From IMG/VR virus record IMGVR_UViG_3300029309_000228, positions 9,640-30,159 of that record: 20,520 nt of DNA; one strand, given 5' to 3'. The stretch's first letter is position 1. Every line of letters begins with the position of its first letter. The position numbers and the translations under genes were made by a program. Below are positions 150 through 11,015 of the stretch, piece by piece. The notes beneath the pieces are model-generated. The model was not told the DNA's origin and did no database searches. It saw only the letters and a program-made list of their open reading frames with translations. This DNA comes from a virus.

Positions 150-2303
150 TTATCTTATAGTTGCTTGTCCTTGTATTACCGCCACCTGGTTTTGAGTTGC
201 TGTAATATCTGTTTCAGTTACAAATACTCTAGTGTTGTTTTGTGGTACTAATGTGCTAGTGTTAGCTGGTGCTAGTAAAGGTGCACCACCGCCACCATCA
301 TAACCACCACCTCCGCCACCACCAGCCAAAGTAGCTGCTTCAAATTTTTGTTGCCTTATTTTATTAACATTTGCTAATCCAGCAAAGATAGCAGCACCAG
401 CAGCTATAGCACCCCTAACAGGTGATGATGGGTCTGGCACTGGTAAAAATTGTGATTGATAAGCACTGTTAGCACTAGAATATGTAGTCATTAAAGCACC
501 AGCTATTTGAGCTGATTTTTGTCTGTCAAAAGCTTTTTTTGCCCTTTTATTATTTGCTGCTAATAATTTACTTTTTTCTTTGTTAGTCAATTTCTCATTA
601 TTTAATATACTATTATTCATTCTATTGAACCTGTCTAAAGTTTGTTGTGATAAATCAGCAAATGTATTTAATAGTTGTGTTGTGGTATCAATAGAAAATT
701 GTTTATTTCTTTCTATTATTGCTAATTGTCTTGCCTCTTCCTCATCTGCAAACCTTTTTTTAATTTCATTTATTTCAGCTTGTTGTGCCTCTTCTAATGT
801 TTTTGAGTCTTCACCAAATATTTTAGCTTGCTCTATTAATGTATTATATTTATCTCTTACTGCATTTATTTCTATTTGTTCTTTGCTTAACTTTCTGTCA
901 AAAAATTCATTTTCTAACTCTTCTTTAGCTAGTAAAAAATCTGCTAAATCTTGAGCCTCTTTAGCATTTTGCTCTATTTTTTTAGCCCTAGCATCAGCAG
1001 CTGATTGATCTTGTTTATTTTTACTTTTATTATTAATTGCTACTCCTCTTTCTGCAAAATCTTTTTTAATTTTTTCAATAGCCAGTTGTGTATTAAACTC
1101 AGCTAATTCTCTTTCACTTTTTGTAAGTTCACTAGTTTTGATTAAGTGTTTTAATTTAAAATTTTCAATATCAATAAAATCTTGTAAACTTTCAGCATTT
1201 GCTGTTTTAGTAGCTACCATTAATTCAAAAGCTGCTTTTTTCTCAGCTTCATTTCTAACCCTAATCTTTTCTAATCTTTCTGCCTCTTCCTTATCTGCTT
1301 TGTCTTTTTGTTCTTTTATTTGTTCATCTATCTCAATTCTAGTTTGTAGTTTATTATCTAATAATTTTAATTCTAAAGCGTTATTAGCAGCCACTTTATT
1401 TATTGTAGCCTCTTCTAGTTGTTCTCTAATTAAAGCTGCTTTTTCTTCATTTTTAAAATTTTTGGCTAATAATTTAGATAACCTTTCCTCCTCTATTTGG
1501 AAATTTTTTAGTTTTTGTCTTAAAGCATTTGTTTCTATATCTCTTAATTCCTCAGCATTTCCTTTTCTAATTTTAGCGTTTAATATCTCCTTTTGTGTTG
1601 TTATGTCAATTTCATTGTTTAATCTAGTTACTTCAGACCTATAACCCTTCAACGTTTCAGTTAAGTCTGCTAGTTCTTTTTCAAGTTCATCTGAATTATC
1701 CATCCAATCCATAGTCATAGAAACTACTTCACCTAAAACAGCGACTAGAAGACCTATACCAGAAGCAGCGATTGCACCTTTTAAAATTTTAAAACTCCTT
1801 GACGTTCCTTTCACGGTAATTCCGAGTAATCTCATTGCTGTCCTAGCTAAATTAGTGGCAGCTGTGTTTGCCTTAGTTATTATAGTATTAGCTATAGTAC
1901 TATTATTTAATAACTTCATCATTGATTGAGTTCCCTCTATAGCTCCTTTAAAGGCCATAGATATTCCAATAGCCTTTTCTATGTTTTGTACCGTTTCTTC
2001 AATAGCGCCACCTCCTCCACCTAACAAAACAAAAGCAGCAGACACATCACCAACAGCACCAGCTACAGAACCTAATTCACTAGCTACTTGCTCATTGTCT
2101 AAAGACTCCATAGATAGCTCGGTGTTTTTAATTTCTCTACTAACACCAGTTAATTCTGTCTTTAAATCTTTAAAAGCCTTTGAGCCTAAAGGAACTTTTC
2201 TTAGCTCTTCGTTTAATCTTTCTGCCTCTTCCTCTAATTGACCTAATGAGGTGGTAGCACCTTTTGCATTAATGTCTAATTCTAAAGCTATTTTTTCTGC
2301 CAT
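150..2303 (-). CDS. Tail tape measure protein
   Basis: This 717-residue protein should line the tail tube, set tail length during assembly and leave with the DNA at infection. It has the usual tape measure build. An N-terminal charged helical part is followed by a small-residue, hydrophobic stretch at about residues 75-200, including a likely membrane-active segment near 172-195. A long Lys/Glu/Ala-rich coiled coil runs from about 200 to 620. The C-terminal part contains a glycine-rich linker at about 660-675 (seven Gly, Tyr-Asp, four Gly). At roughly 1.5 angstroms per residue, the rule of thumb for this family, it implies a tail near 100 nm; that figure is an inference. No lytic transglycosylase or peptidase domain is obvious. 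It starts four bases after the upstream structural gene ends. Confidence 0.85.
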   Translation of the reverse strand: MAEKIALELDINAKGATTSLGQLEEEAERLNEELRKVPLGSKAFKDLKTELTGVSREIKNTELSMESLDNEQVASELGSVAGAVGDVSAAFVLLGGGGGAIEETVQNIEKAIGISMAFKGAIEGTQSMMKLLNNSTIANTIITKANTAATNLARTAMRLLGITVKGTSRSFKILKGAIAASGIGLLVAVLGEVVSMTMDWMDNSDELEKELADLTETLKGYRSEVTRLNNEIDITTQKEILNAKIRKGNAEELRDIETNALRQKLKNFQIEEERLSKLLAKNFKNEEKAALIREQLEEATINKVAANNALELKLLDNKLQTRIEIDEQIKEQKDKADKEEAERLEKIRVRNEAEKKAAFELMVATKTANAESLQDFIDIENFKLKHLIKTSELTKSERELAEFNTQLAIEKIKKDFAERGVAINNKSKNKQDQSAADARAKKIEQNAKEAQDLADFLLAKEELENEFFDRKLSKEQIEINAVRDKYNTLIEQAKIFGEDSKTLEEAQQAEINEIKKRFADEEEARQLAIIERNKQFSIDTTTQLLNTFADLSQQTLDRFNRMNNSILNNEKLTNKEKSKLLAANNKRAKKAFDRQKSAQIAGALMTTYSSANSAYQSQFLPVPDPSSPVRGAIAAGAAIFAGLANVNKIRQQKFEAATLAGGGGGGGYDGGGGAPLLAPANTSTLVPQNNTRVFVTETDITATQNQVAVIQGQATIR

Positions 2304-2306
2304 TTC

Positions 2307-5300
2307 TTAATTATTTGATGTTATTATAAATTCTGTACCTGTCCATTGGATAGTCACATAAGAGTAATTAGAACTTAACACATAAGTGTTAGAACCATCT
2401 ATAGTAGCTCCAATAGTAGATGCATCAATAGTAACTGTATTTGATGCTGTTATTTTTTTAAAAGACCAGGTTTTTCCTTCATTTATTGTCACAGTAGGTG
2501 AAAAATCTATAGTAAAGTTACCACCTGTAGCATCACAAAAATATTGTTTTACATTTAAATTTGCCTTTGTAAATGATGTAATAGTTTCAGTAGAACCATT
2601 GCCAGATGTTATTTCATTATTAATGTAGGTTATATTTGATGTTATGACAGTTTGATTATCACTGTTAATTAATTTAACATTATTACAACCTGAATTTATA
2701 ATATTATTACTCCCTTGAATTTCAATATTTTTTGCAAATGATTTTATTTTATTATTAGAACCAATTATATTAATTGCATAAGCTGTAGGTGAGATGTAAT
2801 TGTTTGAACCTACTACTCTTTGATTTAAGCTTGTTCTGGTATTATTATTAGTTAATAGATTATTACTCCTAGAAAACAACGGCGCTCTACTACTACCAAC
2901 TAAAACACCTGTACCACCTCTAGTAGCTGTAGTAGATGGTGTGAAAATTTCACTCAAATTTAATTTTAAAAATTCACATTTAGTAATTGGATTTATAGGA
3001 TTATAGTTTTCTACTTTATTAAGTCTAAAATATTGACCTTCAAAATAATATTGTTTACTAAAACTTAGATTTTTGATGTCAGATGGACTTAAATAAAAAT
3101 GACCAGTTACTACTTTACTATTAACGTCTGTTATTTCCTGGATAAATTTTTCATAGTATTTATTAAAAAGTGTATTATCACAGAATGTAATTTCTTTGTC
3201 AAATACATTAGCATAATATATTTCATTAGTCAAACCAAACTCTAAAAGCGTAGTTGGCGTATATGGATCATCATACATACCAGCATAAGGATAAGAAGAC
3301 TGTATTAAATTTGCACCAGTTCCAAACCAATTATCTGTGCTTAAAGACCAGTTAAAACTAGATGATTTCAAACCACCCCACTGCAAAATCCTTATATTAC
3401 TTTCTGTCCTAGTATAACCACTATTATCATCATATTTATATATGGTAGGAATAACTCTATCGTGATAAGATTGCCCTACTGATGGCGTAGGTGAAAATAT
3501 TACTTCTGTTTTATGTTCTGTGTTTAAAAAATCATTAACTAGTGTAAAATCATCTTGACCGTAAACCTCATCCCAAGTACTAAAATATAACTCATTGTAA
3601 AAATCTTTATCCTGTTTATATGTATATAAATATTCTTTAAAGTTTAAAGCTCCCATAGGTTTGGATTCTACATTTTGGGATTTATCTATTTTAGTAGACC
3701 AGTCTATAATATCATTACTATAGAAATCGTCTCTAGGTTCTATTAATAAATTTTTGTTGTTAGATGCATCTGGCTGAATATATAAATTAAACATTTTAAC
3801 AAAAGACATAATATAGTCTTTTTGTTTTATTTTTTTTGGTATTGTGTCATTCATAGGTATGTTAGTACCCTCTAAAATCATTGTGTTAGTAATATCCGAT
3901 TTAAAAAAACCATCTAAAATATTAAGTGCATAAGCCTCTCCAGTAGTTCCTGTTGCACCAGGCCAAACAGATGGAAAGCTTTGTTGCCCAAAAGATGAGT
4001 CTATTACGACCTTACCAGCGACTTTAGCAAAAATCTCCAGTTTTACTTTTTCGCCTTCTTCTAAAAATACTTCTGGAATATTTAAAAAATATTTATTTTT
4101 TGGATTTGTATTATTTAAAACAACCCGGTTTTCTTCTACAGCAAAAAAACCACTGCCTAGAGGTATAACACCATTGAGAAGCAAATAATCTTCATTTGTC
4201 GTAGATGGGTTAGCATCAGTTATATGTTGCTGTCCTGGTGTAAATGTTGTATTTTCTGATCTTATTGCTAAATCTAAAGCATCCAAATTTTCAATAAAAT
4301 TTTCTGAATTATCATATTTATTTATTTCTATTCTAACAACCATAAAACCATTAAAAGTTGTGCTAGTGTAAGATGTTGTTGGTGATTTAAAACTCGCTTG
4401 TAATTGGAGCATACTATTGAAACTGTAAAACCCTTTAGCACCTGCAGGAACCGTAAAAACATCATTAACAAAAACATTTCCTGCATCCCTAACTTCATTT
4501 GTAAAACCTACATCTTTCATTTCTGAATTCTCAAAAAAAGTAGGATCAAAAACCACATTAAAGTTAGTGCTGCCACTACTTTGTATTATAGGACTATCAA
4601 CTTCAAAAGTTCTATTTAAAATGGTAGTATTTGAAAATTTAAAATCCTCACCATTAAAAGGTATTATTAAAGTATTAAAAAAACTACTAGTCAAAAAAGT
4701 TGATGTATAACTATATCCAATAGAATCAAATATTAAATCCAAATATTTTTTTGCTTTTACAGCTGGATAAAAATCAGTAACTTTCCACTCTTCTGTATTT
4801 GGTCCAGTAGAAATTAAAGTATTTGAATTGTTAGTAATCATATCACCTCTATAATTAATCATAGGGTAGCAATAATCAGTAGTCAACGGCAAATTCCAAG
4901 TTGCTGTTATATTTGTAGCAGTGTAAGTATGATCTAAAGCACTTAAGTCTAAGTCAGTTAATTCAGCAGCTCCTAAGTCAGCTATGAAGTTTCCTACTCT
5001 ACCTATTATAATACAATTATATATTATATGACCGTCTTTATCTTTTACAGATTTTAACTGTAGATAGCCGTCAATTTGTATTTCACCATCTACTAAATAT
5101 ATGACATCTGTCTTTAGATTAGGATTAAAAGTTTGCAAATCAGTATCTAATTCAAAGATGTGTTCAAATATCTTATTAATCTTTTTACTAGCTGGCAACT
5201 CTATAGTTTTAGAGTGGTCTGCTTTTCTAGTATCTGGCTTAGCAATATCAGCAATATTAAAAGTTAAATTAGGGTTTAATGATTTAATTAACTCTACGCT

Positions 5301-5333
5301 TTCACCGTTTATATATAACTCTTCTTTAATCAT
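2307..5333 (-). CDS. Large tail/baseplate structural protein with beta-helix-like C-terminal repeats
   Basis: This is the largest protein in the window (1008 residues). It lies between another structural gene and the tape measure, so it is probably a virion tail or tail-tip component. Most of it is rich in Asn, Thr, Ser, Tyr and Phe, as expected for an all-beta particle protein; I do not recognise a named family for residues 1-800. At about 842-892 there is a repeat of GSNN-type turns at 842, 858, 874 and (as GCNN) 882, with a related NSDN near 890. Spacings are multiples of eight, which suggests turns of a small beta-helix or trimeric fibre. The last 80 residues form a separate domain ending in a WTGTEFIITSNN-type strand, resembling C-terminal modules of phage fibres. 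Host binding is an inference from these features. Confidence 0.65.
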   Translation of the reverse strand: MIKEELYINGESVELIKSLNPNLTFNIADIAKPDTRKADHSKTIELPASKKINKIFEHIFELDTDLQTFNPNLKTDVIYLVDGEIQIDGYLQLKSVKDKDGHIIYNCIIIGRVGNFIADLGAAELTDLDLSALDHTYTATNITATWNLPLTTDYCYPMINYRGDMITNNSNTLISTGPNTEEWKVTDFYPAVKAKKYLDLIFDSIGYSYTSTFLTSSFFNTLIIPFNGEDFKFSNTTILNRTFEVDSPIIQSSGSTNFNVVFDPTFFENSEMKDVGFTNEVRDAGNVFVNDVFTVPAGAKGFYSFNSMLQLQASFKSPTTSYTSTTFNGFMVVRIEINKYDNSENFIENLDALDLAIRSENTTFTPGQQHITDANPSTTNEDYLLLNGVIPLGSGFFAVEENRVVLNNTNPKNKYFLNIPEVFLEEGEKVKLEIFAKVAGKVVIDSSFGQQSFPSVWPGATGTTGEAYALNILDGFFKSDITNTMILEGTNIPMNDTIPKKIKQKDYIMSFVKMFNLYIQPDASNNKNLLIEPRDDFYSNDIIDWSTKIDKSQNVESKPMGALNFKEYLYTYKQDKDFYNELYFSTWDEVYGQDDFTLVNDFLNTEHKTEVIFSPTPSVGQSYHDRVIPTIYKYDDNSGYTRTESNIRILQWGGLKSSSFNWSLSTDNWFGTGANLIQSSYPYAGMYDDPYTPTTLLEFGLTNEIYYANVFDKEITFCDNTLFNKYYEKFIQEITDVNSKVVTGHFYLSPSDIKNLSFSKQYYFEGQYFRLNKVENYNPINPITKCEFLKLNLSEIFTPSTTATRGGTGVLVGSSRAPLFSRSNNLLTNNNTRTSLNQRVVGSNNYISPTAYAINIIGSNNKIKSFAKNIEIQGSNNIINSGCNNVKLINSDNQTVITSNITYINNEITSGNGSTETITSFTKANLNVKQYFCDATGGNFTIDFSPTVTINEGKTWSFKKITASNTVTIDASTIGATIDGSNTYVLSSNYSYVTIQWTGTEFIITSNN

Positions 5334-5335
5334 TC

Positions 5336-6658
5336 TTAGAAAGTTTGTCTAAAATTATCTATTCCAAATTCAATATCTAGTGTTAAAGTGCAAACCATAT
5401 CACTGTTAATAGTTTTTTCTTCCCAATTACCCTCTATGTTTTGCACTGGTATACGCCTTATTTCTGTAGTTCCTGACGGTGTTGTATAGTTATCTAGTAA
5501 ATATATTTCAGGGCTTTCTATTAGTTCTAATAGCCAGTTATAAGTATCTACAGTCATAAAGTCAGAGTTTAACTTCATTTTGTTTTTAGATGAGGTATAG
5601 TATTGCACCTTTTGTCTATTTGATATTGAGTAATCAATAACACCAGTCTCAGATAAATCATTAGGATTAGTCTTAAAGAACTTTCTTTCTATTTCCTCTG
5701 AGTGTTTAGATACTTTAGTAAAATTATAATAATCAAAACCACCTAGACTATTTAAAAATTCTAGTCTTCTAGTTTCATAACGACATTCACTTGCTATATT
5801 AAAAAACATTTGCTCTGTCTTTAATATACTAGCTTTTTTTAGTTGAATTGAGTAGTAAGAAGCAGATGTTGAAACTATTGGCTGACTACCTGTTAAATAA
5901 GTTGTATTTATTGAGTTTAATGTTGTTGGTGCGTAAGGTATTCTAACGTGCTTAGCATTTGTTAAAGTTGGAACTGTTATATCTAAATCATCTATTAAGT
6001 TCCCATTTGATCTAAATGTCTTTAAGTTTATAGCATCAAAATTAGTAACATTATCCATTAGTATGTATATATAACCCTCGTCTGTATATTGAACTTCTAA
6101 ATTGTTAGAACTACCAGCAAAACCTCTAGGCTGATTAGTTAAGAATTTATGAGTTGATATATTTGGGATATATTTTAAATAAAAATCAGTAGACTGCCAG
6201 TCATAGAAGTTTACAACATCTCTTCTATAGTTAGGTAAGGAACCGTTAAATACAATTAAGTTTTGTGTTGAGGTTGTGCTAGTATCTGGTAGTGTAACTG
6301 TTTGAGGTATGCTAGTAGTAGCTGAGCCTGTATTATAATGCACCCATCCAAATTGCAAAGTAAAGTTTGTATGGCTATTAGTATTGTCAAATACAGAGTC
6401 TATGTTAGTTCCATTTAACAACCCTAAATCACTTGAAATATACGATTTCATAATACCAGATAAATCGAAACGCCCAAAACCATTAGTAGTAGGTGGTACT
6501 CTTAATCTACCTATCGTAGTTAAACCTATTTTAACATCTATTAAATAGGCAAATCCAGTGTAACCTCTAGTAGTTGCATCAGTCTCAAACATTACTATTT
6601 CAACTGGATTATATACACTTCTATAATCTTGCGGCAAATATTTTATTTCTAAACTCAT
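5336..6658 (-). CDS. Putative tail structural protein
   Basis: A 440-residue protein of unrecognised family. It is rich in Thr, Asn, Ser, Tyr and Phe, lacks a signal peptide or membrane segment, and looks beta-rich, all typical of particle proteins. Its ATG overlaps the stop of the HK97 gp10-like gene (ATGA junction), and it is followed two bases later by the 1008-residue structural gene. Position between a tail-completion-type gene and the tape measure argues for a tail tube, tail-tip or baseplate role. It could be the major tail protein, but the length is large for that family and the usual order (major tail protein before the chaperone) does not fit, so I do not assign it. Confidence 0.55.
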   Translation of the reverse strand: MSLEIKYLPQDYRSVYNPVEIVMFETDATTRGYTGFAYLIDVKIGLTTIGRLRVPPTTNGFGRFDLSGIMKSYISSDLGLLNGTNIDSVFDNTNSHTNFTLQFGWVHYNTGSATTSIPQTVTLPDTSTTSTQNLIVFNGSLPNYRRDVVNFYDWQSTDFYLKYIPNISTHKFLTNQPRGFAGSSNNLEVQYTDEGYIYILMDNVTNFDAINLKTFRSNGNLIDDLDITVPTLTNAKHVRIPYAPTTLNSINTTYLTGSQPIVSTSASYYSIQLKKASILKTEQMFFNIASECRYETRRLEFLNSLGGFDYYNFTKVSKHSEEIERKFFKTNPNDLSETGVIDYSISNRQKVQYYTSSKNKMKLNSDFMTVDTYNWLLELIESPEIYLLDNYTTPSGTTEIRRIPVQNIEGNWEEKTINSDMVCTLTLDIEFGIDNFRQTF

Positions 6659-7233
6659 TTTTCTAATATTTCTTTTAATCCTTTTGCTACTCTGTCACCA
6701 GATACTACTCTAATATCTGACTTAAATCTGTCAAATGTTTCACCAAAAAAAGTTTCTTTCATACAGTTGTCAAAAAAGAATCTAGGTTTAATTCCTTTAT
6801 GTGCTATTGATGTTCTAACGGCATATTCATTCAATCCTTTACTTCTGGCCCATTGTTTTATGTGGCTTACCCTGGGACCTTTTTTAAAACTATACGGACT
6901 GTTGGGAGCTTTAATTTCCCATCCTTGACCTTTTAACCTCCCACTTTTTCTTTTTCCTCCAATACCTTTGACACCTTTATTAACAAAGTCGTAATAGTCA
7001 GCTAAAAATAAAGTAGCTGTTAATCTAAATCCAAACATCTTAACAGGCATTTTAATTGACTCTAGTAAATTACCTTTAAAAGTTAAGTTTTCTTTTTGTA
7101 CTGATTGTTTTAAACAAAAAACCATTTCAGCAGCAATATTATTAAACACCTCAGATAGTGTACTAGGGTTATTTATTTTAACCTCTTCTAGTTGATTAAC
7201 ATCGAATCCAAATATGTCTAATTGATTACTCAT
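6655..7233 (-). CDS. Tail completion/head-tail joining protein, HK97 gp10-like
   Basis: This 192-residue basic protein has a feature common in the HK97 gp10 family, which sits at the head-tail interface or terminates the tail tube. A central segment ADYYDFVNKGVKG, where gp10-like proteins typically have a Y-x-x-(Y/F)-V-E-x-G-type motif, is followed by a Lys/Gly/Arg-rich loop (GGKRKSGRLKGQGW). A second recognisable part is KGIKPRFFFDNCMKETF, resembling the 'xxPRPFLxPAxxxx' end of the family. Its ATG overlaps the stop of the -1 frame of the chaperone gene (ATGA at 7233-7230), so the two are translationally coupled. The match is by pattern only and the protein is longer than many gp10 homologues. 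Confidence 0.5.
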   Translation of the reverse strand: MSNQLDIFGFDVNQLEEVKINNPSTLSEVFNNIAAEMVFCLKQSVQKENLTFKGNLLESIKMPVKMFGFRLTATLFLADYYDFVNKGVKGIGGKRKSGRLKGQGWEIKAPNSPYSFKKGPRVSHIKQWARSKGLNEYAVRTSIAHKGIKPRFFFDNCMKETFFGETFDRFKSDIRVVSGDRVAKGLKEILEK

Positions 7234-7508
7234 CTTCTTTTAGTTTTCTGCATTTGCTCCCTATGTATTTGCATCTCCATTTTTTGTTTATCATTATAAT
7301 AAGCTACTATATTTAGTGCTTTAATTACATTATAATTCAATACCTCATCCCACTTATCTATCCTGCTATTTGTTAGACTATCTAAGGTAGCCCACCATCC
7401 CCATCTTTTAGTGAACTCATTTCTAGTGTCAGTTCTTTCTTTATCCTTTCCACTTCCTCCATTAAACAAGTTTTTATAGCCTTTGTTAAGCCGTCCAAGT
7501 GAGTGTAA
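7230..7508 (-). CDS. Tail assembly chaperone, -1 frameshift extension (gpT-like part of the fusion)
   Basis: This second frame is open from just after a TAG at 7520-7518 down to TGA at 7232-7230. It has no good start of its own: the only early candidate is a TTG at 7469 with no leader. Read after a -1 shift at 7508-7514, it adds 92 residues to the first 173 of the chaperone, giving a 265-residue fusion instead of the 214-residue unshifted protein. The added part continues LHSLGRLNKGYKNLF and then RWGWWATLDSLTNS, a Trp-rich helical module, ending in a very basic tail (EQMQKTKRR). This fits gpT-like extensions, which bind tail tube subunits. Confidence concerns the frameshift reading; a separate gene with a TTG start is less likely. 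Confidence 0.6.
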   Translation of the reverse strand, partial: LHSLGRLNKGYKNLFNGGSGKDKERTDTRNEFTKRWGWWATLDSLTNSRIDKWDEVLNYNVIKALNIVAYYNDKQKMEMQIHREQMQKTKRR

Positions 7509-8026
7509 AAAAAAACACTAATAGGATAAGCTATAGTCATTGGCATATTGTCAAAAAAGTTTTTAGATGTTTCTCTAATTATTTTAGCATCCACTTTTAT
7601 TTTACGCCAAACAAAAAACTTTCTTTTAACTGGTCTACATACAGTGGTTAGTATAGTGTGTAAATTATCAAAAATAACCTCTTCATTATCCCTAGCTTTT
7701 TCTATTATCTCCATTATGTTTATATACTCACCAAATAATAAATTTTGTGCTTTTAATTCAAAGATATACCAATGACCACCTATCTTAAATCTTTTGTGTT
7801 TAAGTTCTTTAGGGAGTTCAGTATCTAAGAAACTCATCTTTTTCTTAATCTCTTTGTACTGATCTAAACTAATGTTTTTAATTACTTCTTTCTTTTCTCC
7901 AGTTAATATAGCTAGTATATTAATTACTCGTTGTATTGGTGTTAGTTCTGAATTTAAAACTGGTCTTAGGTTAATGTAATTACCTACAGTAATATCTTTC
8001 CACTTTGTTGGTATTGTAACATTCAT
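7382..8026 (-). CDS. Tail assembly chaperone, short (gpG-like) product
   Basis: This is the first gene of the tail operon. I place the start at the ATG at 8026 (MNVTIPTKWKDITVGNYINL, 214 residues); the upstream extension to 8068 begins with GTG and has no clear leader. It is a soluble helical protein with a 'P-x-x-W-K-D-I-T-V-G-x-Y' start, which resembles chaperone-like tail proteins of Bacteroidetes phages. In lambda, gpG and the frameshifted gpGT coat the tape measure and recruit tail subunits. Two features match that system: a second frame at -1 overlaps the 3' end, and a T run (7507-7515) provides a slippery heptamer. No portal or capsid gene separates it from the terminase block. The functional label is inferred from architecture and position. 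Confidence 0.6.
   Translation of the reverse strand: MNVTIPTKWKDITVGNYINLRPVLNSELTPIQRVINILAILTGEKKEVIKNISLDQYKEIKKKMSFLDTELPKELKHKRFKIGGHWYIFELKAQNLLFGEYINIMEIIEKARDNEEVIFDNLHTILTTVCRPVKRKFFVWRKIKVDAKIIRETSKNFFDNMPMTIAYPISVFFYTHLDGLTKAIKTCLMEEVERIKKELTLEMSSLKDGDGGLP
7508..7514 (-). other. Slippery heptamer T TTT TTT, predicted programmed -1 ribosomal frameshift site
   Basis: In the zero frame the codons are GTT TTT TTT TAC (Val-Phe-Phe-Tyr, 7516-7505), inside a run of nine T. The heptamer fits X_XXY_YYZ perfectly, so both tRNAs can re-pair after slipping back one base. The -1 frame has its last stop (TAG, 7520-7518) immediately upstream, so the site is at the earliest position where a shift could work. 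A weak A/T-rich stem can be drawn downstream (TTAACAA near 7489 with TTGTTTAA near 7469, one bulge), but I see no strong hairpin or pseudoknot. Slippage of RNA polymerase on the T run could give the same product. Confidence 0.65.
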
Positions 8027-8246
8027 ATTTCTATATATAACAAATTTTTGAATTATGACAAAAACCACCTAAATTATTTTTTAGTTAAATACTAATCAAC
8101 TAAACACTAACTAAATAAATTAACTCAATATGTATTTAAACACTATTTAGATGAGTTTTAAGACACTCAAATACTTTTTTAGTATATTCATATACATTAG
8201 TATTTAATAATAGCTTAGATGTCTTTATTTTAATTCTGTTGCTTTT

Positions 8247-8298
8247 TTATCTTATTTTATCTTTTCTTTTATTGTCTTATCTTTTCTTATCTTATCTT
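8247..8298. repeat. Pyrimidine-rich tract with phased TTATCTT repeats
   Basis: On the plus strand TTATCTT occurs at 8247, 8257, 8277, 8287 and 8292. Four of these positions fall on a 10-base spacing, with one position of the series (8267) degenerate. The whole stretch is almost purely T/C with scattered A, so the minus strand is purine-rich (AAGATAA units). Phasing near one helical turn would place the units on the same DNA face, as for a multi-site binding protein or a bent or easily melted segment. It directly adjoins the 11-bp repeats. Confidence 0.6.
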
Positions 8299-8307
8299 AT
8301 ATAACCC

Positions 8308-8351
8308 CATTTGCTCAGCATTTGCTAACCATTTGCTCAGCATTTGGTCTT
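8308..8351. repeat. Four tandem 11-bp iteron-like repeats (CATTTGCTCAG)
   Basis: The units are CATTTGCTCAG (8308-8318), CATTTGCTAAC (8319-8329), CATTTGCTCAG (8330-8340) and the degenerate CATTTGGTCTT (8341-8351). Units 1 and 3 are identical, so the array can also be read as a 22-bp repeat. Each full unit includes TGCT, and two junctions form TGCTCAGCA, a palindrome around one central base. The arrangement resembles operators or iterons bound by a cooperative protein and is GC-richer than its surroundings. It lies just downstream of the terminator of the terminase block. Confidence 0.75.
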
Positions 8352-8366
8352 TTTATATCTGTAAAT

Positions 8367-8404
8367 AAAAAAAGGATGCAACGCTCTTTTGCCGACTACA
8401 TCCT
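8367..8404 (-). terminator. Intrinsic terminator of the terminase-methyltransferase block
   Basis: Read on the minus strand, AGGAT (8404-8400) pairs with ATCCT (8377-8373). An inner GCAA (8392-8389) pairs with TTGC (8381-8378), leaving a 7-base bulge on the 5' side and a loop AAGAGCG. The 3' arm TTGCATCC runs straight into seven T (8373-8367). The position, about 60 bases after the methyltransferase stop, fits the end of a transcription unit. The stem is interrupted, so readthrough or regulation is possible. Confidence 0.65.
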
Positions 8405-8464
8405 CCTAGTTCTTATTTTTTGGTTAAATTAAATATCCTAAAATAACCTACTCAAATATACTAA

Positions 8465-9211
8465 TTAAAACAATTTATATTCTACTTCTTTAATTCTTTT
8501 TTTTGCAATTTCAAAATATCCCTCATCTTGCTCTATTCCAATAAAATTTCTATTTAAGTTCTTTGCTGCTACGCCAGTAGTTCCGATACCCATAGTAAAA
8601 TCTAAAACCGTTTCATTTTCATTAGTATAAGTCTTTATTAAGTATTGCATTAATGCTACTGGTTTTTGCGTTGGATGGATGGGTGGATGTGGTCTATTAT
8701 ATTTTAATACTTGTCTTGGATATTTCTCATTGCCCTCTCTATTGACTCTTTTAAAATTTCCATATAAATTATTGTTTTTGCAAGTTACATCATTAATTGC
8801 TTTACCTATTGAATTAGATTTTTTACCTATTGTCATTATAGGATTGTAGGTGCATTGTTTTTTATAAAATACAGATATATTTTCCACATTTCTCAAAGGT
8901 TGTTTTTTAGAATTAAGATGTCCACTTGGTCTATCTTTTTTCCATATCCAGTCATATTTATAGTTTTTTATATTTGACATTCTCAAAGCACTACTAAAAG
9001 GCTCAGAGCCAAATAAAACTATAGCTCCATTATCTTTAATAATTCTGTTTAGTTGTTTCCACATTAAATTAAAGTCAATAACACTATCCCACTTACAAGC
9101 AGTAGTTCCGTAAGGTGGGTCTGTTATAATAGCATCAATACTTTTGTCTTGTATTGTTTGCATTACTTTTAAGCAATCTCCTTTATATAGTTTTATCTTA
9201 TTGAATACCAT
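8465..9211 (-). CDS. DNA N6-adenine (or N4-cytosine) methyltransferase, beta-class
   Basis: This 248-residue enzyme should transfer a methyl group from S-adenosylmethionine to an exocyclic amino group in DNA. Catalytic motif IV is DPPYG at residues 31-35. The cofactor motif lies C-terminal to it at 203-212 (LDFTMGIGTT, a variant of the usual DPFxGSGTT), after HPTQKP at 179-184. DPPY first and FxGxG last defines the beta class. The target site cannot be read from sequence; the insert between the motifs (about 95-175) probably forms the recognition region. No restriction endonuclease lies nearby, so it is an orphan enzyme likely to protect phage DNA or influence packaging or expression. It overlaps the terminase large subunit gene by 19 bases and is followed by the terminator. 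Confidence 0.85.
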   Translation of the reverse strand: MVFNKIKLYKGDCLKVMQTIQDKSIDAIITDPPYGTTACKWDSVIDFNLMWKQLNRIIKDNGAIVLFGSEPFSSALRMSNIKNYKYDWIWKKDRPSGHLNSKKQPLRNVENISVFYKKQCTYNPIMTIGKKSNSIGKAINDVTCKNNNLYGNFKRVNREGNEKYPRQVLKYNRPHPPIHPTQKPVALMQYLIKTYTNENETVLDFTMGIGTTGVAAKNLNRNFIGIEQDEGYFEIAKKRIKEVEYKLF

Positions 9212-10371
9212 CCTTTATTATTTTGTTTTAAATGTATTAAAGCTACGTATCGCAAAGCATCCAGTAAGTGATCTTGTCCTATTGGTTTTTGTAAGCTATT
9301 ACCGTTTTTGTCAGTAGCCCATTTGTAAGTCCTAAACTCTCTTCTTAAGTTACTACTACTTACTACATTTATTTTAAAGCGTTTTAAGATATCTATTCCA
9401 TTAAGAATACTATCTCTACCTTTTGTAGCTGGCTTTGCGTTTAAACCTAGTCTATATATTTCTTCTATTGACTTAGGCTCTGCACTATCACAAATAACCT
9501 CATCTCTGCCTATTATAGGCCTTAGTCTTTTTGCTAGGTCCTGATTAGTTAATTCTCTTTCGTAAATAATTTCTTTTAAATATAGCTCATCATCTTTTCT
9601 ATATACAGCAACGCAAGCAGAAGGATCAATACTATAACCAAAGTCTAATCCATAAGCTACTAATTTACAATCTGGCATAGTATCTACATATTTAACATTT
9701 TCATATACTAGACCACTTATATTACCATACTCACCTAGACCGTATATCTTCCAAAATTCTTTGTCTGTTTCTTTTAAGTACTCTATTTCTTTAATTAGTG
9801 ACTTAGGTAGAAACGTATTATTTTTGTAGTTACTTACTATCACCTCAACATCATTAACCTCTGCAGCTCTTTTTATTTCAAGTTCCTGGTTAATCCATAT
9901 TTGTTCATCATCTGGATTAAAGTCTAAGAATATTTTATTCTCAGTTCGCATTAGTAATTGAAAGAACTCCTGTTTGTATTCTAATTCGTTTGCTTCATTA
10001 CAGTATAAGATATTTCTTTTAGCACCTCTTAATTTTTGCTCATCATCCGCACCTATAAACTCAACTAGTCTTTTACCGTATCTGTATTGTTTTTTAGTTT
10101 TATTATGATCCACACTATTATACCAACCCTCAACTTTTAGTATATCCTCAAAGTCTCTTATAACAGTACCGTCTAGATTAGTTCTATACTTTCTTACAGT
10201 AGTCCAAACACCTTCACTTACATACATACCATTTCCATAGTTACCACTAATTAACCACAAAGCGCATAATTGATTTAAAGACCAGGTCTTACTACTTCTA
10301 GTGCCACCTCTATTAATTACTATCTTAGCTGTAGAGTCGTAGTTGCGTTCAAAGATTTCAGTCGCTTCCAC
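9193..10371 (-). CDS. terL: Terminase large subunit (packaging ATPase-nuclease)
   Basis: This 392-residue motor protein should cut concatemeric DNA and pump it into the prohead through the portal. The N-terminal ATPase has a P-loop variant GGTRSSKT at 22-29, a Walker B region ILYCNEAN at 121-128 with catalytic Glu126, and LDFNPDD at 149-155. The C-terminal RNase H-like nuclease shows acidic residues in GLDFG (Asp243), ICDSAEPK (Asp295) and GQDHLLDALRY (Asp367, Asp371). These features match the PBSX-type Terminase_3 family, whose members are usually slightly longer (about 420). It overlaps the small subunit gene by 14 bases. Unusually, no portal gene follows; the next gene is a methyltransferase. 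Confidence 0.93.
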   Translation of the reverse strand: MEATEIFERNYDSTAKIVINRGGTRSSKTWSLNQLCALWLISGNYGNGMYVSEGVWTTVRKYRTNLDGTVIRDFEDILKVEGWYNSVDHNKTKKQYRYGKRLVEFIGADDEQKLRGAKRNILYCNEANELEYKQEFFQLLMRTENKIFLDFNPDDEQIWINQELEIKRAAEVNDVEVIVSNYKNNTFLPKSLIKEIEYLKETDKEFWKIYGLGEYGNISGLVYENVKYVDTMPDCKLVAYGLDFGYSIDPSACVAVYRKDDELYLKEIIYERELTNQDLAKRLRPIIGRDEVICDSAEPKSIEEIYRLGLNAKPATKGRDSILNGIDILKRFKINVVSSSNLRREFRTYKWATDKNGNSLQKPIGQDHLLDALRYVALIHLKQNNKGWYSIR

Positions 10372-10831
10372 GCTTTATATTGATATTGATATTGTGAACT
10401 GTTTGTTCTATTTCCTGTTTGTCTGGAGCGTTCAAACCAAACATCTTAGCAATAGAATCATAAGCCCCTCGATAGTCAGAACCTTTAACCATTTCCTTAA
10501 GTAAATAGAATTTAGCTTTCTGGTCTTTAGAGAGGTTTTCTTTTGCTGCTAAGTCCATTAGATACTCCCAAGATTTAATCATCTTAAAATAGCCCTCAGC
10601 TACTTCTTTCCGCGTTATTTGAAAAGACTCAGCTTCTTTTTTCTGTAACTCATTGACTGTTAGTTTTATGTTAGTATCTGCTAACAGCTTACTAGAATTC
10701 ACTTTAATAGTATCTAAACTAGTATCTGTACCAACATCATAAGCCCGTCTATAAGCCTCTGAAGCATTACCAGTATTAACATACTCTTCAGCAAATTTAC
10801 GTTGTTTAGGTGTTAGCTTTTTAGTCTTCAT
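10358..10831 (-). CDS. terS: Terminase small subunit
   Basis: A 157-residue DNA-recognition subunit of the packaging motor. The start MKTKKLTPKQRKFAEEYVNT, followed by GNASEAYRRAYD, is the N-terminal helix-turn-helix signature of Terminase_2-type small subunits. The middle is helical and probably forms the oligomer ring, and the C-terminal tail would contact the large subunit. I chose the ATG at 10831 because family members begin directly before LTPKQ; an in-frame ATG at 10843 would add four residues. It overlaps both flanking genes slightly, consistent with coupled translation with the large subunit. Confidence 0.85.
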   Translation of the reverse strand: MKTKKLTPKQRKFAEEYVNTGNASEAYRRAYDVGTDTSLDTIKVNSSKLLADTNIKLTVNELQKKEAESFQITRKEVAEGYFKMIKSWEYLMDLAAKENLSKDQKAKFYLLKEMVKGSDYRGAYDSIAKMFGLNAPDKQEIEQTVHNININIKRGSD

Positions 10832-11015
10832 AAATATAAGCAAGTTCTAATATTTCAAAATCAGTTCCAAAATCAAATGTAGTAGATGCGACACCATTAA
10901 TATCAAATAGTTCATACGTTTCACCGTTTAACATACTGTGAAAATATAATCCATCCTCATCAATATAATAACCATACTCAAGTTTTATTTTTTGATGTTC
11001 TTTTTTTGCGCACAT
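10821..11015 (-). CDS. Small hypothetical protein
   Basis: A 64-residue protein, MCAKKEHQKIKLEYGYYIDE onward, of no family I recognise. After a basic start it is acidic and aromatic, and it ends in LAYIYED. I prefer the ATG at 11015, which follows a run of A/G bases (AAAAAAGAAAAAAA) typical of leaders in this genome. The longer in-frame start at 11048 would overlap the upstream gene by 71 bases. It overlaps the terminase small subunit gene by 11 bases, so its product may be made together with the packaging proteins. Confidence 0.55.
   Translation of the reverse strand: MCAKKEHQKIKLEYGYYIDEDGLYFHSMLNGETYELFDINGVASTTFDFGTDFEILELAYIYED

Follow-up and report, generated by a model that had tools for sequence, protein, structure and literature searches.

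In the 20,520-nucleotide stretch of viral DNA analysed here (hereafter, the window), two overlapping reading frames on the minus strand appear to be joined by a -1 recoding event into one gene with products of two lengths. That this recoding is real and conserved is strongly supported by the conservation of the slip site, purifying selection on the -1 frame, the lack of a start of its own in that frame, the same layout in Nonlabens phage P12024S, and homologues that encode the long form as a single open reading frame (ORF). The best explanation, to which we give slightly better than even chances, would be one recoded morphogenesis gene that uses a ribosomal -1 shift to make a pair of proteins resembling lambda gpG/gpGT. 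Frame 0 (G) is an ORF of 214 aa (7382..8026, minus strand) that starts with the ATG at 8026, reads MNVTIPTKW...GDGGLP, and ends at TAG 7384-7382. The -1 frame (T) is open over 95 codons (7230..7517, minus strand) between TAG 7520-7518, which bounds it upstream, and its stop, TGA at 7232-7230, and contains a W.WW...L.NSR.DK module. The frames overlap at 7382..7517 (minus strand), a dual-coding stretch with constraint in both. Within it, the G frame reads CCT ATT AGT GTT TTT TTT TAC ACT, and a run of nine Ts (T9; 7507..7515, minus strand) in GTT TTT TTT TAC (7516-7505) is the candidate slippage site, which holds the heptamer T_TTT_TTT (7508..7514, minus strand) in the X_XXY_YYZ register. After the shift, the -1 frame is read from 7508, with a predicted junction PISVFF-LHSLGR. 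The whole recoded gene would therefore occupy 7230..8026 (minus strand), giving 214 aa by default and 265 aa after the -1 shift, and the profile of this fusion is collinear with the single-ORF homologues. A preliminary description of this DNA had proposed the same frames, coordinates, and lengths, all of which were recomputed from the sequence and are right; the heptamer that it placed at 7514-7508 was found there, inside T9. Its remark that the heptamer lies as early as the -1 frame permits is true of the window and its nearest relatives only; most homologues keep the -1 frame open for another 10-26 codons upstream.

Regarding the conservation of the site, the 214-aa G has 29 relatives in IMG/VR with 67-100% identity where the match covers most of the length (67-95% in most of them), and alignments of the G part and the T part added further homologues, down to about 50% identity. 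BLAST of the window gene (DNA and protein) against phage records gave no match, recovery being by profile only, and two scans of genome contigs gave no prophage or genome relatives. A collection of 80 distinct IMG/VR loci was made via the T-domain protein alone, with the T run as no criterion. The preliminary description had suggested searching homologues for conservation of the overlap and the slippery site, and this search bears it out, as exactly T9 in the same register is kept in 79 of the 80 and both frames are constrained. In the one remaining homologue, on the contig IMGVR_UViG_3300017763_001333, the run is T8 and the G frame is interrupted, which may reflect either a sequencing error or a real variant. 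The base preceding T9 is G throughout the 80 loci, and the two bases 3′ of the run vary (AC, AT, GC, GG), so that the residue after the run is Tyr, Cys, or Trp. The T_TTT_TTT register is the same in all representatives and in P12024S. When codons at the site were compared among 24 representatives with <90% identity, Phe172-Phe173 was TTT TTT in 24/24, with TTC accounting for 19% of Phe codons, and Val171 was GTT in 23/23, against a GTT usage of 42% of Val codons (P12024S has CTT); as the representatives share ancestry, these counts are not independent events. Beyond the overlap, the conserved V/F/Y/I/L columns of G all show synonymous variation (e.g., 14 TTC and 9 TTT at F66). The conservation of T9 is far beyond chance.

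The T frame carries the marks of a protein under selection. For 11 representatives without gaps, pairwise variability at the three codon positions amounts to 0.23/0.09/0.41 where only G is encoded and to 0.17/0.12/0.40 where only T is encoded, the latter read in the -1 frame; judged from these alignments, this periodicity is a protein-coding pattern. In the G/T overlap, neither frame has a free third position. Stops in the -1 frame of the overlap occur in 0/11 sequences, compared with 10.9/11 expected when synonymous codons are shuffled by usage. The -1 amino-acid divergence is 0.363, below all 500 permutations in which synonymous codons were permuted within columns (0.394, sd 0.004). Among the 20 codons with which the -1 frame of the window begins, one TTG is the sole ATG/GTG/TTG; since this only candidate is missing in several relatives, the T frame is without a conserved start, in line with the earlier remark that the second frame has no credible start. 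No conserved ATG/GTG/TTG was found ahead of the W.WW module in the window group, and an own start for T was rejected for that group.

A cultured relative was reached through a match of the portal protein to Nonlabens phage P12024S, in which the G profile then found gp38 (PHROG 32199) directly after terL. P12024S gp38 reads CTT TTT TTT TAT, with T9 at 23578-23586 in the same register as in the window, and the -1 frame is open at 23570-23830. In hhalign comparisons, gp38 matches the G profile with an E-value of 2.7e-8 and the -1 ORF matches the T profile with an E-value of 1.3e-5. The window G itself matches PHROG 32199 (E 3.8e-5). The gene order terL-G-T-192aa-440aa-1008aa, counting homologue-like genes, is common to the window and P12024S. 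P12024S gp38 and gp39 (PHROG 38404) thus share with the window a homologous G, a homologous T in the -1 frame, the T9 register, and the gene order, whereas identity is about 25-30%, CTT replaces GTT ahead of the run, and TAATG is present at the G stop. In the record NC_018271.1, gp38 and gp39 are annotated as two hypothetical proteins, but by sequence they look like one recoded gene (23136-23830). As the annotated gp39 start lies at TAATG, reinitiation is conceivable in P12024S.

Distant relatives that encode the long form in one frame were found by structure. A Foldseek search of viral models with an AF2 model of G (pLDDT 79) gave 35 matches with E <= 0.001, including P12024S gp38 and a protein of Flavobacterium phage 6H. 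Through the latter, homologues were reached in Duneviridae, Leef_1, Microcystis, and Bacteroides phages, where the gene is a single ORF of 259-301 aa (PHROG 25418); the Duneviridae members with the single ORF are FPSV-F7, 2A, laban6-1, and Ingeline_1. In hhalign, the fusion profile matches the single-ORF proteins with an E-value of 3.2e-10 over 218 columns spanning the junction, and the score is 74.2 for the fusion versus 66.9 for G alone; the six single-ORF proteins are distant from the fusion profile, and the T-half is the weaker part of the alignment. The PHROG 25418 proteins and the frameshift product are thus collinear across the junction, but the former have one uninterrupted frame without T9. 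By this collinearity, which the preliminary description did not include, the frameshift product corresponds to the full-length protein made elsewhere, and the default product is a short form of it; the match would be hard to explain unless the -1 frame joins G. Phage 6H itself was rejected as a case of frameshifting, because its -1 frame stops immediately (TAG 10364-10362); as its relatives use one frame, 6H looks like a disrupted copy. The 6H gene (KC959568.1 10927-10044) encodes just the first part of the single 293-aa ORF of FPSV-F7 and 2A, and the remainder of this type of protein is present as an unannotated open frame.

In the proposed mechanism, most ribosomes would stay in frame 0 and make the 214-aa protein, and at U9 a minority would slip back one base, probably by tandem re-pairing of two Phe tRNAs on U_UUU_UUU. 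The shifted product would have 265 aa, the final 92 of them from the -1 frame, and would show an architecture for which other phages use a single frame. A downstream stimulatory structure is frequent in -1 frameshifting, but not obligatory. No RNA structure was found downstream of T9 in 24 representatives (mean fold z -0.13 to -0.27), in agreement with the preliminary description, which had seen no strong downstream structure; when the upstream side was included, no structure appeared either (mean z between -0.27 and 0.25), and no Rfam match was found at the locus. Therefore, the claim of a programmed ribosomal -1 frameshift holds as far as conserved recoding is concerned, but its attribution to the ribosome is less secure, because a T9 without a stimulator also fits transcriptional slippage. 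In that case, RNA polymerase would stutter on T9 and some mRNAs would carry T10, from which ribosomes in an unchanged frame would translate the long protein, passing through an additional Phe-type codon step at the run. On T8 mRNAs, G would end prematurely, about 6 codons past the run. Baranov and colleagues searched for runs of nine A or T and treated the avoidance of such runs, relative to codon-shuffled coding sequence, as a sign of slippage (PMC1088944); T9 reaches this 9A/9T cut-off. Across related ORFs totalling about 126 kb, with the recoding site removed, 2 A9 runs were observed versus 12.1 in the codon-shuffled expectation, a clear sixfold depletion, and 0 other T9 runs versus 2.6 expected, a weak result; avoidance of long runs could also have ribosomal or replication slippage as its source. 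As RNA structure and other T9 runs are lacking and A9 runs are depleted, polymerase slippage on T9 is a serious rival, one that we regard as possible but not probable.

Further features of the site bear on this choice. Exactly T9 is kept, which is more than the 7 bases of a ribosomal heptamer, and the last heptamer base is always T, even though T-to-C there would be silent in both frames and would retain a U_UUU_UUC heptamer; since TTT is the common Phe codon, this invariance is at most suggestive for the run length. Transcriptional slippage without ribosomal signals has a precedent in an A11 tract (PMC4256274). Genes with transcriptional slippage, such as Citrobacter rodentium tssM, Shigella mxiE, and IS elements, likewise have a long homopolymer near the frame transition and two protein lengths without further signals (PMC4256274, PMC1088944), but those described with a conserved overlap have A runs, whereas the window gene has T9 with a ribosomal heptamer in register. 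Besides this heptamer, what speaks against slippage by the polymerase is that the Val codon and, in the -1 frame, Leu partly dictate the flanking Ts, that transcripts would be wasted on T8, and that the known tail chaperone cases are ascribed to ribosomal shifting (PMC5009743, PMC10885494), which is the usual reading for such tail genes (PMC5009743). In Flavobacterium johnsoniae, frameshifting at prfB is reportedly poor and Shine-Dalgarno sequences seldom used (PMC12421855), which, by our inference, would fit a site independent of a Shine-Dalgarno stimulator. It would be a step further, and one that we consider unlikely, to see here a flavobacterial tail-assembly-type gene whose two lengths are set at transcription, in hosts with reportedly poor Shine-Dalgarno-dependent shift stimulation. 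On balance, it is probably the ribosome, and not RNA polymerase, that slips. Separate production of T, either from an internal start or through reinitiation after termination at the G stop, would be in keeping with the TAATG of P12024S, from which gp39 is annotated, but the window group has no conserved start ahead of the W.WW module and the fixed T9 would be left unexplained; we consider this very improbable. A sequencing error or a decaying frame, for which the single homologue with T8 and a broken G frame could be cited, is refuted by conservation, as the other 79 distinct sequences, which come from many metagenomes, agree with each other and purifying selection acts on both frames, leaving it next to no probability.

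Tail assembly chaperones of the gpG/gpGT type bind the tape measure and tail tube proteins, are absent from the virion, and have their gene directly upstream of that for the tape measure protein. The lambda type in two lengths is also the likeliest role for the pair described here, as the preliminary description proposed in calling it a gpGT-like chaperone. The arrangement speaks for this proposal, as judged from frame layout and synteny a two-length layout of a predicted product is present in the tail gene region; against it, neither a chaperone family nor a solved structure gave a match, and other genes intervene before the tape measure gene. Lambda gpG/gpGT, one of the dsDNA phage tail assembly chaperones made by -1 frameshifting (Xu, Hendrix and Duda 2004, as given in PMC5009743), likewise has two lengths via a -1 shift in the tail-gene cluster, which in the window is read from sequence; in contrast to lambda, the window gene has no detectable sequence homology to gpG/gpGT, an all-T9 site, single-ORF relatives, and a position with three genes between it and the tape measure gene. 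The likely tape measure protein of the window (717 aa; 150..2303, minus strand) was assigned from its syntenic position and gave no significant family match, and P12024S gp49 matches the tape measure family PHROG 58 (E 2.2e-4). No chaperone family match was found in Pfam, PHROGs, or NCBIfam, and no usable match to a tail chaperone in PDB, by sequence or by fold; helical PDB matches (Z <= 4) were set aside. Among the Foldseek matches of the G model, some weak ones (prob 0.72 and 0.90) are annotated as tail assembly chaperone, and the structure model of the T domain is of low confidence (pLDDT 56). Owing to the lack of family and PDB matches and to the three genes that intervene before the tape measure candidate, the gene is kept out of the gpG/gpGT family, but it may work like gpG/gpGT. 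A role as a tail assembly chaperone is plausible from the arrangement, the module, and the weak fold matches, and we consider it fairly likely. Alternatively, the recoding may be real and the protein another head-tail morphogenesis or connector protein in two lengths, a reading that we rate as a distinct possibility short of probable. Besides the missing chaperone matches, it gains from the position of the gene after terL in both the window and P12024S, not adjoining the tape measure gene, from Ingeline_1, which has two genes between the homologue and the tape measure gene, and from the Duneviridae homologues, which exist in one full-length form alone; on the other side, a -1 recoding that yields two lengths within a tail-gene cluster is the hallmark of tail chaperones, the weak Foldseek matches point the same way, and one other P12024S pair in -1 relation, gp47/gp48, does not qualify. 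The latter pair, which lies just upstream of the tape measure gene, was rejected as a chaperone pair because its overlap is just 16 nt and it is without a long T or A run.

A full-text literature search of open-access papers gave no description of this frameshift or recoding in these flavophages. The recoding site is shared by a large, mostly uncultured group of marine phages and by one cultured phage. No stimulator could be detected at it, and for the bacterial group concerned, weak ribosomal frameshifting at prfB and a rare use of Shine-Dalgarno sequences have been reported (Flavobacterium johnsoniae, PMC12421855). In P12024S, two genes listed as "hypothetical" are reassigned as one, and PHROGs 32199, 38404, and 25418 are joined into one family.

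The next gene encodes a 192-aa protein (6655..7233, minus strand), syntenic with P12024S 24400-24852. Its ATG (7233-7231) overlaps the stop TGA of the T frame as ATGA, so that ribosomes completing the long form would stop where the next gene begins; in relatives, the T stop and the next start are arranged similarly or closely spaced. In contig L031 (20-9526) and the window (150-10843), the tape measure block lies between the terminase and head genes (protease, capsid, portal), and this order of terminase, tape measure block, and head genes is unusual and partly common to P12024S. A 171-aa protein of L031 (5894-6409) matches two separate P12024S genes (2149-2598 and 5968-6435), which are possible paralogues. 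Long runs of A are otherwise uncommon among these phages. Between the methyltransferase gene and G, the window has a gap (8234-8346) with short tandem repeats, with about 11 copies of TTATC and 3.5 copies of CATTTGCTCAG.
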